Below are positions 4,678 through 13,872 of a stretch of DNA of 26,127 bases, one piece after another (position 1 is the stretch's first letter; the number at the start of each line of letters is the position of its first letter). The notes below the pieces were generated by a model. It saw nothing but the letters and a program-made list of their open reading frames with translations, did not search any database and was not told the origin of the DNA. The DNA lies in the IMG/VR virus record IMGVR_UViG_3300028844_004365, positions 1 to 26,127 of that record; one strand, written 5' to 3'. The stretch is from a virus. The position numbers and the translations under genes were made by a program.

Positions 4678-4702
4678 AGTATACTTTTACCAATAATAGT
4701 AG

Positions 4703-4731
4703 TAGACATTAGATAAATATAGTTGTATATT
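4703..4731 (+). promoter_or_regulatory. Host-type (sigma70-like) promoter for gp32
   Basis: A -35-like TAGACA (4703-4708) and a -10-like TATATT (4726-4731) are separated by 17 bases. Predicted transcription start is near 4738, giving a leader of about 60 bases before the gp32 ATG. Confidence 0.5.
4712..4719 (+). promoter_or_regulatory. Late-promoter octamer within the gp32 upstream region
   Basis: GATAAATA matches NATAAATA and lies inside the spacer of the host-type promoter at 4703-4731. The two elements could give gp32 both early/middle and late expression. This is inferred from overlap alone. Confidence 0.4.
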
Positions 4732-4740
4732 ATGTACTAT

Positions 4741-4815
4741 ATGTCTGATATACATTTAGGCAACAACAAACATAGGCACAATAAAGGAGGCTTACATTAT
4801 GGCATCATTGGCTGA
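4741..4815 (+). CDS. Possible 24-residue leader peptide overlapping the gp32 start
   Basis: A short open frame begins with ATG at 4741 (an in-frame ATG also occurs at 4732) and ends with TGA at 4813-4815, 17 bases into gp32 in a different frame. Its middle codons, encoding NKGG, are created by the gp32 ribosome-binding site AAAGGAGG. Ribosomes translating it would cross and terminate just past the gp32 start, a geometry suited to translational coupling. It has no obvious Shine-Dalgarno sequence, but would lie within a few bases of the predicted transcription start. It may be fortuitous. Confidence 0.3.
   Translation: MSDIHLGNNKHRHNKGGLHYGIIG
4783..4790 (+). promoter_or_regulatory. Strong ribosome-binding site of gp32
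   Basis: AAAGGAGG lies 8 bases before the ATG at 4799. It is the most complete Shine-Dalgarno sequence in the window, consistent with gp32 being needed in large amounts. Confidence 0.8.
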
Positions 4816-5794
4816 AATAAGAGCGAAGTTAAAATCTCAAGAAGTGAATCGCTCCACTTCCAACACAGGCGGAGACAACGCCATTTATCCACATTGGAAC
4901 ATAGCAGAAGGATCAGAAGCAGTAGTACGATTCTTACCCGATAAGGATACAAATAATACATTTTTCTGGACTGAGAGAAACATGATCAAATTACCTTTCG
5001 CAGGTATTAAAGGTCAGACTGATTCTAGACCAGTTACAGTGCAAGTACCTTGCATGGAAATGTATGGCAAGACTTGTCCAGTACTAACGGAAGTTAGACC
5101 ATGGTTCAAAGACAAGAGCATGGAAGACATGGGCAGAAAATATTGGAAAAAGAAAAGTTACATTTTCCAAGGTTTTGTTACAACAAATCCACTAGCAGAG
5201 GACTCAACTCCTGAGAATCCAGTAAGAAGATTTATAATTGGACCTCAGATTTTTAACATTATCAGAGGAGCATTAATGGATCCAGAGATGGAAGAAATGC
5301 CAACTGATTATGTGAAAGGTGTTGATTTTAGAATTACTAAAACAACTAAAGGTGGTTATGCTGACTACTCAACATCAAAATGGTCAAGAAGAGAACGTGC
5401 ATTAGATGAGGCAGAGAGAGCCGCAATCGACACACATGGTTTACACAACCTAGGTGACTTCAGACCAAAAGAGCCAACAGAAGCAGAGGTTAAAATAATC
5501 GCAGAACTATTTGCGAAATCTGTGGAAGGTGAGGCTTATGATCTCGAGCAGTATGGACAGTACTTCAGACCGGCGGGCGTGGCTTACCAAGGTAAACCAC
5601 AGGTAGCAGTACCAACAGCATCGGCTCCAGCGGCAACACCAGTAACAGAAGCGGCACCAACAGCGGCTCCGGTTACGGAAAGTGCACCAGCACCACAACC
5701 TGAGGCGGCTCCGGCAACGGCGGCTCCAGCAGGCGACAGTGCCAAGAGAGCAGAAGACATCTTGAAGTTGATTAGATCAAGACAAGCAAAATAA
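4799..5794 (+). CDS. 32: Single-stranded DNA-binding protein gp32
   Basis: Coats ssDNA during replication, recombination and repair, and works with UvsX and the replisome. The 331 residues begin with a short basic N-terminal segment (LAEIRAKLKSQ), which in T4 gp32 mediates cooperativity. An OB-fold-like core follows, with the region VPCMEMYGKTCPV (about 84-95) and KYWKKKSYIFQGFV (about 114-127), typical of cyanophage-type gp32. Only two Cys (about C85 and C93) are visible here, fewer than the Cys/His set that holds zinc in T4 gp32. The C-terminal part (about 270-315) is a low-complexity Ala/Pro/Thr tail, ending in AEDILKLIRSRQAK instead of the acidic end of T4 gp32. The start is fixed by the strong ribosome-binding site. 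uvsX follows, but with its own promoter. Confidence 0.88.
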   Translation: MASLAEIRAKLKSQEVNRSTSNTGGDNAIYPHWNIAEGSEAVVRFLPDKDTNNTFFWTERNMIKLPFAGIKGQTDSRPVTVQVPCMEMYGKTCPVLTEVRPWFKDKSMEDMGRKYWKKKSYIFQGFVTTNPLAEDSTPENPVRRFIIGPQIFNIIRGALMDPEMEEMPTDYVKGVDFRITKTTKGGYADYSTSKWSRRERALDEAERAAIDTHGLHNLGDFRPKEPTEAEVKIIAELFAKSVEGEAYDLEQYGQYFRPAGVAYQGKPQVAVPTASAPAATPVTEAAPTAAPVTESAPAPQPEAAPATAAPAGDSAKRAEDILKLIRSRQAK

Positions 5795-5806
5795 TCTGAC
5801 ATTTTA

Positions 5807-5838
5807 CCAAGGCCCTGACATTGACGTTAGGGCCTAGG
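5807..5838 (+). promoter_or_regulatory. Hairpin over the uvsX promoter, possible gp32 terminator
   Basis: An inverted repeat: AGGCCCT in the left arm (5810-5816) is perfectly complementary to AGGGCCT in the right arm (5829-5835), and the stem extends to 13 positions with one mismatch and one G-T wobble (5807-5819 with 5826-5838). The loop is 6 bases (5820-5825). It begins 12 bases after the gp32 stop codon, where a terminator would be expected, but no T-run follows. Its loop and right arm carry the -35 box of the uvsX promoter. Confidence 0.6.
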
Positions 5839-5849
5839 TATGCTAAAAT
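5821..5849 (+). promoter_or_regulatory. Extended -10 host-type promoter for uvsX
   Basis: TTGACG (5821-5826) and TAAAAT (5844-5849) are 17 bases apart, with TG one base before the -10 (TGC then TAAAAT), the extended -10 form. Predicted start is near 5856, followed by AAGGA at 5860-5864 and the uvsX ATG at 5872. This argues against the in-frame TTG at 5821 as the real start of uvsX. Confidence 0.65.
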
Positions 5850-5871
5850 AGATGACACAAAGGACAAAATT

Positions 5872-6969
5872 ATGACGAAAGTATTTGACGCAACAAAATT
5901 TAGAAAAAGTATCACAAAATCAATCCAAGGGTTAGGCATAGGATTCAGCGATCCTACAGATTGGATCTCAACAGGAAATTACGCATTAAACTATTTGATG
6001 ACCAGTGATTTCAACAGAGGTATTCCACTAGGAAAAGTAACTGTACTTGCAGGTGAATCAGGAGCAGGCAAAAGTTACATAGCATCAGGAAACATAATCA
6101 AGAACGCACAAGAGCAAGGCATCTTCGTTATATTGATTGACACAGAGAATGCACTAGATGAGAAATGGTTACAGGCATTGAACGTGGACACATCAGAAGA
6201 CAAACTTTTAAAATTAAGTATGTCAATGGTTGATGATGTTGCAAAGACTGTTTCAGAGTTTATGAAAGGTTACAAAGAGCAACACGCAGACAACAAAGAA
6301 GGTGCACCTAAAGTACTGTTCGTCATAGACAGTCTGGGCATGATGCTTACACCAACAGATGTAAATCAGTTTGAAGCAGGTGACATGAAAGGTGACTTGG
6401 GTAGAAAACCAAAGGCACTGACGGCACTCGTGAGGAACTGTGTTAATATGTTTGGTAGTTGGAACGTAGGGCTCATAGCAACCAATCACACATACGCATC
6501 ACAAGATATGTTTGATCCAGATGACAAGATATCAGGCGGACAAGGATTTATCTATGCAAGTTCTATCGTTGTTGCAATGAAAAAATTAAAATTAAAAGAA
6601 GATGAAGCAGGCAATAAAGTTTCAGATGTGAGAGGTATAAGAGCCGCTTGTAAAGTTATGAAGACCAGATATGCCAAGCCGTTTGAAGGTGTACAGGTCA
6701 AGATTCCGTACGAAACGGGAATGAATCCTTACAGTGGATTAGTTGATCTTTTCGAGAAAAAAGGCCTACTAGTTCAGACAGGGAACAGACTGAAATATAT
6801 CGACAAAGCAGGTAAAGAACACATCGACTTCAGAAAAGCATGGGTTGGCGATAAATTAGATATGATAATGGCGGAATTCAAAGAAGAGGTACCCACTGAA
6901 ATGGAAGATACCGATGCCCCTATCGAAGTAGAAACGAAAACAAAAACAAAGAGTAAAAAAGAAGAGTAA
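5872..6969 (+). CDS. uvsX: UvsX recombinase (RecA/Rad51 family)
   Basis: Strand-exchange ATPase of T4-like phages. It forms filaments on ssDNA and drives recombination-dependent replication and repair, with gp32 and the UvsY mediator as partners. The 365-residue product has Walker A GESGAGKS (about 61-68), a conserved acidic strand ILIDTENALD (about 87-96), Walker B VLFVIDSLG (about 148-156) and the ssDNA-binding L2 region with GGQGFIYASSIVV. The C-terminus is a charged Glu/Lys/Thr tail. I chose the ATG at 5872 because it has AAGGA 7 bases upstream, and because the longer in-frame TTG start at 5821 falls on the -35 box of a good promoter. The stop codon overlaps the start of the next gene by one base (TAATG), indicating translational coupling. 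Confidence 0.95.
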   Translation: MTKVFDATKFRKSITKSIQGLGIGFSDPTDWISTGNYALNYLMTSDFNRGIPLGKVTVLAGESGAGKSYIASGNIIKNAQEQGIFVILIDTENALDEKWLQALNVDTSEDKLLKLSMSMVDDVAKTVSEFMKGYKEQHADNKEGAPKVLFVIDSLGMMLTPTDVNQFEAGDMKGDLGRKPKALTALVRNCVNMFGSWNVGLIATNHTYASQDMFDPDDKISGGQGFIYASSIVVAMKKLKLKEDEAGNKVSDVRGIRAACKVMKTRYAKPFEGVQVKIPYETGMNPYSGLVDLFEKKGLLVQTGNRLKYIDKAGKEHIDFRKAWVGDKLDMIMAEFKEEVPTEMEDTDAPIEVETKTKTKSKKEE

Positions 6970-12789: not shown

Positions 12790-13872
12790 ATGAAGAACAT
12801 AGATTCAATCAAGTATTTTTTAGATAAATGGGAAACTGTCGACACCAGTTATGATTACACGGTACCTTACCACAAAGACATAGACCCAAACTTCACAAGT
12901 TTACCAACTTTCGTTGCAGAATTCCATGATTGTAAAGTTCATAGTTGTCCTTTACTTGTCACTTACCAACAGAAACTAATAACCAATTACATATGGCGCC
13001 TAACTGATAGAAGTAGGAACAAGCCAGGTAAGTCACACAATCTTTGGAAGGAATGGGGAGATGAGGTACAAGCAGAATTACCACCAGTCAGTGACCACTT
13101 CCATGAGAAGTACCGTTACGTGTGGTTGCCCATCGACGAGCAAAGTGTGGAGAACCCATGGCACATATGGATAGATGTAATTTCAAAATTCAGACTGATG
13201 GAGAAAAGATGGTCAACAGATTTTACAAGATACTGTTACGTATTGGCCAACGAAAGCAAATACTTTGAGAAATGTATAAAAGAATTGTTCCCTGAAGTAA
13301 AAGTTCTCGTGATGCCAAAAAATGCAACTTGGCAATTCAAACATCTGCTAGTCCCAAGTGCAAGTAATTCAAAAGACGGAGTAATCACTCCGCACCTGGC
13401 ACCATGGCTGAGACATTTCAAAGGCAGGCCTGGATTGAAAGAAACAAAATCTCACAGGAAAATTGTTGTATTAAGACCAGGTGCAAAAACGAGAAGAATC
13501 ACAAACTCAGATGAATTGCTGTTGGCACTTAAAGGATGGGAGACAGTGGACCTGGCAAAGATGACAATAAGAGAACAAATGAAAACATTCGCAGAGGCCA
13601 CACACATCGTTGCGGCGCACGGTGCAGGCCTAGTAAATCTACTATGGTGCAATCCGGGAACAAAGGTCATAGAGATACAAGACAAAAATATGATCCACAA
13701 GAAAGTGTATCCTGTGTTGTCTCATCACCTAGGACTCGCACACACTTTATACTTGGCGGACACCGTGCCTATAGCGTTGCAAAACAACAAGAAACCAAAA
13801 GGCATCAAGCGTCTCACTGATCTAATTGATTTTAAAATAGACATAACAGACTTGATGAAGCACATAGACTAA
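12790..13872 (+). CDS. GT61-family (DUF563) glycosyltransferase
   Basis: A 360-residue protein with the hallmark of glycosyltransferase family 61: ATHIVAAHGAGLVNLLWCNPGTKVIEI near the C-terminus, with AHGAG at about 276-280. It is preceded by KIVVLRPGAKTRRITNSDELL, which matches the Arg-rich strand and loop before this motif in GT61 enzymes. The N-terminal half is poorly conserved and probably binds the acceptor. GT61 members transfer xylose, arabinose or GlcNAc in plants and animals and act on surface polysaccharides in bacteria. It is the first gene of the rightward island operon, and its stop overlaps the next start by one base (TAATG). Confidence 0.87.
   Translation: MKNIDSIKYFLDKWETVDTSYDYTVPYHKDIDPNFTSLPTFVAEFHDCKVHSCPLLVTYQQKLITNYIWRLTDRSRNKPGKSHNLWKEWGDEVQAELPPVSDHFHEKYRYVWLPIDEQSVENPWHIWIDVISKFRLMEKRWSTDFTRYCYVLANESKYFEKCIKELFPEVKVLVMPKNATWQFKHLLVPSASNSKDGVITPHLAPWLRHFKGRPGLKETKSHRKIVVLRPGAKTRRITNSDELLLALKGWETVDLAKMTIREQMKTFAEATHIVAAHGAGLVNLLWCNPGTKVIEIQDKNMIHKKVYPVLSHHLGLAHTLYLADTVPIALQNNKKPKGIKRLTDLIDFKIDITDLMKHID

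Follow-up and report, generated by a model that had tools for sequence, protein, structure and literature searches.

A predicted uvsX promoter nested in the DNA of a conserved gp32 3' hairpin in relatives of jumbo T4-like phages

The gp32-uvsX junction and its elements

The virus record IMGVR_UViG_3300028844_004365, the 26,127 bases of which are referred to here as the window, encodes a gp32-like single-stranded DNA-binding protein and, downstream of it, a uvsX-like recombinase, and the junction between these two genes is the subject of this analysis (Table 1). The genes for the terminase large subunit and a virion protein, and a 188-aa ORF without a PHROG or Pfam match, lie 5' of gp32, while uvsX is followed on the 3' side by a UvsY-like gene (PHROG, Pfam); given this arrangement, the hairpin found at the junction separates a packaging/gp32 unit from a recombination unit provided with its own predicted promoter. 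In a phage collection, the relatives of the window are the jumbo T4-like phages RaK2, 121Q, Atu_ph07, Phosso, PA5oct and Vibrio 2.275.O; none of the isolates in it reaches 60% identity in gp32. Elsewhere in the window, positions 12790-13872 encode a protein with a Glycosyltransferase 61 domain.

Table 1. Coordinates of the elements at the gp32-uvsX junction (positions in the window, except for the inserted ORF of a relative)
Feature	Position	Strand	Basis
gp32-like single-stranded DNA-binding protein gene	4799..5794	+	PHROG 1192 (E 3.5e-63), Pfam PF08804 (E 9.2e-8)
RNA hairpin, left arm TACCAAGGCCCTGAC	5805..5819	+	repeat, RNA fold, compensating changes in relatives
Apical loop ATTGAC, 6 nt, with five of the six -35 bases	5820..5825	+	sequence, RNA fold
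-35 box TTGACG of the predicted uvsX promoter	5821..5826	+	promoter scan; TTGAC in relatives
Right arm GTTAGGGCCTAGGTA, doubling as most of the promoter spacer	5826..5840	+	repeat, RNA fold
Extended -10, TGC + TAAAAT (box 5844-5849)	5841..5849	+	promoter scan
Predicted transcription start, 7 nt 3' of the -10	5856..5856	+	promoter geometry only
Shine-Dalgarno-like AAGGA of uvsX	5860..5864	+	sequence
uvsX-like recombinase gene, 365 aa, ATG at 5872	5872..6969	+	PHROG 97 (E 2.5e-62), Pfam RecA PF00154
Inserted ORF (MLYEIDGKPAFRI..), L002 copy of the ~270-aa insert	L002:2751-3569		

The original prediction described a 13-position inverted repeat with a 6-base loop, beginning 12 bases past the gp32 stop and followed by no T-run, and each of these points is borne out by the sequence. 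The stop codon occupies 5792-5794 and the repeat 5807-5819/5826-5838, with 11 of the 13 positions in Watson-Crick pairing, one G·U and one A·A mismatch; two further pairs lengthen the arms to 5805-5819/5826-5840, complementary at 13 of 15 positions. In RNA the hairpin 5805-5840 has 14 pairs, is encoded at the end of the gp32 transcript, and the base of its stem ends 3 nt 5' of the -10 box. The formation of an RNA hairpin on transcription out of gp32, also foreseen, agrees with the folding of the + strand RNA (5790-5880), which has a minimum free energy (MFE) of -26 kcal/mol and a z-score of -5.1, equalled by 0 of 200 shuffles, and with the strand asymmetry of its wobble pairs described below. 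The complementary strand as RNA folds more weakly (z -3.2, 1 of 200 shuffles equal), and there the G·U pair of the + strand hairpin becomes an A·C mismatch. A DNA fold is possible on both strands (z -3.8 and -4.3).

A stable, G+C-rich RNA hairpin past the stop codon at an operon boundary is what an intrinsic (Rho-independent) terminator would also show, and such a hairpin is present here (14 pairs, z -5.1). The element differs, however, in what follows the stem, since the window holds no U-rich tract at this place and the tail, TGCTAAAAT, is the -10 region of the predicted promoter; in addition, a terminator scan of the gp32-uvsX junction for a stem plus T-run found no site. A 14-pair stem lacking a U-tract is therefore not filed as an intrinsic terminator, and the canonical form of this element was rejected as the identity of the hairpin. 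A known Rfam element was likewise rejected, with 0 matches at gathering score in the window and 11 loci.

The -35 box of the predicted uvsX promoter starts within the loop, as originally proposed, covers five loop bases and ends with its final G in the right arm, whereas the TG of an extended -10 promoter stands at 5841-5842 after the stem. The site TTGACG-17-TAAAAT with TG, with its spacer of 17, has 10 of 12 consensus bases and the layout of a sigma70 extended -10 promoter, and it is probably active as a promoter of this type. The start predicted from it falls downstream of the hairpin.

Three promoter-in-hairpin composites with a score of at least 12 are present in the window, among which that of the junction reaches 30.5 and the others 14 and 12.5. 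A survey beyond the window, covering 781,601 bases in 40 fragments of related records, gave 12 composites scoring at least 25 where 0.2 were expected (30 shuffles of the 781,601 bases), and all 12 can be identified by sequence as the gp32-uvsX junction. At a looser score of 18 the numbers are 19 seen and 5.7 expected, and a separate set of three shuffles gave 8, 8 and 12. The possibility of a cassette repeated throughout the genome was rejected, since in the 40 fragments the composites scoring at least 25 are confined to this junction.

Hairpin and promoter in close and distant relatives

Four scans of viral contigs, from each of which the best 80 matches were taken, provided 163 distinct junction regions from at least 272 loci. 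Thirteen of these, containing uvsX only and no readable gp32 end, were left out, and the remaining 150 comprise 77 close regions (gp32 identity of at least 70%, plus L105) and 73 distant ones. Among the matches listed, the composite is found in 68 of the 77 distinct close regions, the other 9 having an inserted ORF in its place; conservation of the stem in related phages, which had been suggested as a check of the original prediction, is thus observed, with compensating changes. Two of the 68 composites, L204 and L262, stop before the -10 at contig ends, which leaves 66 with both boxes. In folds computed blind to the promoter, all 66 of these distinct sequences, the window included, place the first T of TTGAC within the apical loop of the MFE structure. 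A spacer of 17 separates the boxes in 65 of the 66 (among the matches listed, and with a -10 search that tried 17 ahead of 16 and 18). When the fold ends at the -10, no more than 4 nt separate the stem base from this box in all 57 distinct sequences; when 15 nt more are folded, this holds for 52 of the 57, and the distance is at most 7 nt in every one. All 68 insert-free close regions contain TTGAC (again among the matches listed), and it is invariant in 51 aligned elements with variable arms, a constancy to be read with the fact that the elements were chosen for holding TTGAC, the close regions without it being exactly the nine insert-bearing ones. Many close relatives have GGCC-type arms in common, and the loop, in a symmetric stem search, is 4-14 nt long.

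In the nine remaining close relatives, a ~270-aa ORF is inserted between gp32 and uvsX and the hairpin is absent (among the matches listed); the L002 copy of this ORF has no PHROG or Pfam match. All nine have, without a hairpin, the site TTGACA-17-TATAAT, located ahead of uvsX and close to where the inserted ORF ends. Among the distant matches listed, 14 of the 73 regions have a gap of 8-17 nt and no hairpin, and a symmetric search found a hairpin in 47 of the other 59. These distant hairpins contain 23 G·U against 8 A·C (p 0.011), their four-base loops are GNRA or UNCG in 18 of 19 cases, and at least 5 T occur among the 8 bases past the stem in 11 of the 47 (e.g., L158 with 7/8 and L073 with 5/8). 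In many distant relatives no promoter accompanies the hairpin that follows gp32, and in four (L040, L076, L110 and L156) the hairpin is directly followed by a TTGAC/TATAAT promoter-like site, so that the two lie side by side. A hairpin after gp32 was also predicted in 8 of 8 isolated jumbo phages, hand-picked from hit lists and folded with no shuffle control, and in one of them, PA5oct, the gene following it is not uvsX. The 14 distant regions without a hairpin, together with the nine insert-bearing close ones, indicate that the hairpin is dispensable, and the occurrence of hairpin and predicted promoter apart from each other in relatives shows that the two are separable.

A uvsX tree of 142 rows, built with a quick method and supported by SH-aLRT only, places all 59 nested rows in one 69-row clade (support 93), together with 8 insert rows and 2 with a plain hairpin. 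The sister clade, of 7 rows (support 95, joined at 94), contains all four side-by-side rows and three others. In L106 and L109, the uvsX belongs to the clade that contains the window but is preceded by a distant-type gp32 (61%) with its plain hairpin, and in these two regions the hairpin evidently travels with gp32. The 8 insert rows require 8 changes on the tree, from which it appears that the junction has often been exchanged, and it looks like a recombination hot spot.

Upstream of gp32, composites scoring at least 19 were found in 5 of 60 distinct distant regions (L050, L052, L053, L056 and L058; no shuffles were run), with TTGAC at the loop end and the -10 at 17 nt. L127 is a sixth distant case, with a score of 14, and the close group has 1 in 64 (L165, score 18). 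A compensated pair change, from C-G to T-A, sets L053 apart from the other four. At this site the gp32 promoter overlaps the hairpin of the preceding gene, which suggests that hairpins and the promoters following them came to overlap on more than one occasion in this group of phages. L050, L052, L053, L055, L056 and L058 have this second hairpin ~90-100 nt upstream of gp32, past the stop codon of the upstream gene, with TTGAC closing its loop and a -10 following at 17 nt.

Other elements were noticed around the same genes. Between the hairpin-promoter and uvsX, L208, L013, L010, L012 and others encode a small ORF of ~32 aa (..WILYKQIPAW.., with a hydrophobic tail), expression of which would depend on this promoter and the ATG of which lies 6 nt past the -10 in 19 of 26 cases, 5 nt in 4, 9 nt in 2 and 0 nt in 1; with its ATG at the expected +1, it is perhaps a leaderless small membrane protein. 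In L019, L026 and L027, uvsX itself has the 6-nt spacing from the -10. The gp32-uvsX gap of L047, L059, L067, L115 and L138 holds another conserved element, without a match in Rfam, in which an outer stem encloses TTCCGGCAAAAACCTCC..CGGTAA.CAGCGAGGT, and where pairing of CCG with CGG and of ACCTC with GAGGT would allow an H-type pseudoknot. In the same gap, L056 and L058 have a long closing stem around a common AGAACAG.GATTCATTG stretch, which also gave no Rfam match. Finally, the gp32 leader (4700-4798 in the window, and in relatives) contains AT-rich hairpins and AGGCA motifs repeated before the Shine-Dalgarno sequence, as well as a (T)ATAAATA box of T4-late-like type near sigma70-like boxes; these leader elements are perhaps an autoregulatory operator of gp32.

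Selection on the hairpin arms

The arms of different subclades are of different types (GGCCC, TTGGCTCC and GTGGCTATA), exchanged in sequence with pairing kept, as in the arm pairs AGGCCCT/AGGGCCT, TTGGCTCCAG/CTGGAGCCAA and GTGGCTATACT/AGTATAGCCAC. The mean self-pairing score is 28.7 against 18.0 over all swapped arms, and falls to 16.1 for swaps between right arms with at least 3 differences in 14 positions; because many arms are alike, 41.8% of the full set of swaps still reach the lowest self-pairing score, 21.5. Covariation was counted on 15 ungapped variants taken from the mixed 51-row alignment. Their score was 0.273, a value reached in none of 500 shuffles, which gave 0.164, and sliding brought it to no more than 0.076; 96.9% of their cells pair, whereas two of the five covariation measures applied to them, both-side-changed pairs and further pair types, were not above shuffles. 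On the mixed 51-row alignment RNAalifold returned only 4 pairs, a low count which is put down to shifted registers between subclades.

Of the cells in 49 distinct stems, collected by a search that penalised G·U and A·C alike, 574 are Watson-Crick, 50 are G·U, 5 are A·C and 14 fall in none of these classes. On minimum spanning trees, one-sided changes from a Watson-Crick pair led 29 times to G·U, once to A·C (p 6e-8 for 29 to 1) and 7 times to other mismatches, and the Watson-Crick pair was kept through 13 two-sided changes. The left arm alone, which is not part of the promoter, gave 16 G·U and 0 A·C. Minimum spanning trees are a stand-in for phylogeny, and with a recombining junction some events may be counted repeatedly; the changes were for this reason also counted as distinct events, with 18 G·U and 1 A·C. 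A mutational strand bias as the origin of the G·U excess was rejected, since at the fourfold sites of the window's gp32 and uvsX, A exceeds T by 147 to 77 and G is close to C (37 to 33), and such A-rich sites argue against a surplus of changes toward T.

If the inverted repeat were selected as a cruciform or as an operator, G·U and A·C should be equally frequent, yet the ratio is 29 to 1. The hairpin thus appears to have been selected as + strand RNA, and these comparisons show selection acting on the RNA of the gp32 transcript rather than on a DNA cruciform or an operator.

A probable boundary hairpin with a nested predicted promoter, and the alternatives

The explanation that we favour, with a probability of roughly 0.68, is that of a 3'-boundary hairpin of the gp32 mRNA with a sigma70-type promoter of the uvsX-uvsY operon nested in the same DNA. 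Polymerase leaving the packaging/gp32 unit would transcribe the hairpin immediately after the stop codon, and the folded RNA would slow or stop it, letting fewer transcripts enter uvsX; alternatively, the folded RNA would block 3'-5' exonucleases after termination or cleavage further downstream, producing a stable 3' end of the gp32 mRNA. The uvsX operon would start at its own promoter, with the -35 in the loop, the right arm as spacer and the -10 at about the end of the stem. That a hairpin so often follows gp32 in distant relatives agrees with a role at a boundary or in read-through, and the effect is probably one of termination, attenuation or 3' protection, with the terms 'mRNA 3' end' and 'terminator' being inseparable from sequence alone. 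Shared descent plus economy would suffice to explain the nesting.

Stem-loops that stabilise mRNA 3' ends are found at the processed ends of Rho-terminated transcripts and in REP-like elements, and they need no U-tract. The gp32 hairpin resembles them, being a 3' hairpin that has no U-tract and comes after the gene for an abundant protein, and selection at the RNA level (29:1 overall, 16:0 on the left arm, and covariation) is what such a stem-loop would be expected to show; it differs from them in that the right arm and loop double as a promoter-like site. The stability of T4 gene 32 mRNA is well known (PMC3014915).

An unlikely alternative is a hand-over: after its release at the gp32 hairpin, the polymerase would remain bound to the DNA and initiate again from the promoter lying under it, and transcription of gp32 would in this way feed uvsX initiation with no need for read-through. 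That post-termination RNA polymerase can remain on DNA and reinitiate at nearby promoters is a published single-molecule finding (PMC6978380), and the geometry would suit it, as release ~7-9 nt past the stem would land on the -10 and all 57 distinct variants retain the nesting when folded as far as the -10. The recycling described there concerns intrinsic termination, however, and the window's hairpin has no U-tract; moreover, the promoter stands beside the hairpin in four distant relatives, nine close ones have no hairpin, and the constancy of the nesting is equally explained by shared descent. It is accordingly improbable that the hairpin serves as a terminator-to-promoter device coupling the dose of recombinase to that of the single-stranded DNA-binding protein while the mRNAs stay separate.

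It is also quite unlikely that the hairpin has a role in processing or translation only, shaping RNase cleavage or uncoupling the translation of gp32 and uvsX on a shared transcript and leaving the polymerase unaffected. A stable intercistronic hairpin that is dispensable in some relatives would be compatible with such a role, as would the cut made by RNase E near the stop codon of T4 gene 32 mRNA (PMC3014915). Nevertheless, the hairpin is upstream of the predicted uvsX start, and the uvsX mRNA made from the promoter would lack it, leaving only read-through RNA to be affected.

Much less credible is an operator, that is, an inverted repeat binding a dimeric repressor or activator that overlaps the -35. 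Palindromes over a -35 are typical operators, and the GGCC-type arms common to many close relatives would agree with one, but neither the sequence nor the spacing of the half-sites is conserved: the arms of subclades differ with pairing kept, and a loop of 4-14 nt would shift the half-sites. The wobble strand asymmetry speaks against it too, as do the promoterless hairpins after gp32 in distant relatives, many of them with GNRA or UNCG loops.

The least plausible explanation, which formed part of the original prediction, is a DNA cruciform or single-strand hairpin exposing or hiding the -35 and tuning uvsX initiation via supercoiling: DNA folds on both strands and all 66 composites with both boxes have the start of the -35 in the loop, yet a cruciform would tolerate G·T and A·C equally, which 29 to 1 overall and 16 to 0 on the non-promoter arm contradict, the promoter-like site occurs without a palindrome in 9 of 9 insert-bearing relatives, and distant relatives have hairpins without a promoter or, in four cases, just before it. 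Of the dual role originally proposed, the RNA half therefore holds, with conservation and + strand selection in its favour, and the cruciform tuning of uvsX, at odds with the wobble asymmetry, is unsupported.

Among known systems, the virion-RNAP promoters of phage N4 are short single-stranded DNA hairpins with a 3-nt loop, read by the phage's own RNAP. Promoter information lies in a hairpin in both cases; the gp32-uvsX element differs from the N4 type in its 14-pair stem, 6-nt loop and sigma70-type boxes, which are hairpin-free in nine relatives, and in its selection at the RNA level. The functional counterpart in T4, PuvsX, works in vitro with RNA polymerase alone and has a weak -35, UP elements and a perfect -10 (PMC2988021), whereas the site in the window has a good -35 and a hairpin arm as its spacer. 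In the open-licence PMC literature, searched by title or abstract, no description of a -35 inside a conserved gp32 3' hairpin was found.

A single stretch of ~45 nt would have to meet two distinct demands, that of an RNA fold in one transcript and that of a promoter-like site for a sigma factor, and this double use persists in close relatives while the letters of the hairpin change. If the hand-over from terminator to promoter were true, the nesting (loop as -35, arm as spacer, stem base at the -10) would be kept for coupling and not by descent alone. The relatives with each half alone, with both side by side or with one nested in the other form a natural series in which the saving of space can be set against the coupling of transcription units, and which bears on whether the recycling of polymerase after termination matters in nature.
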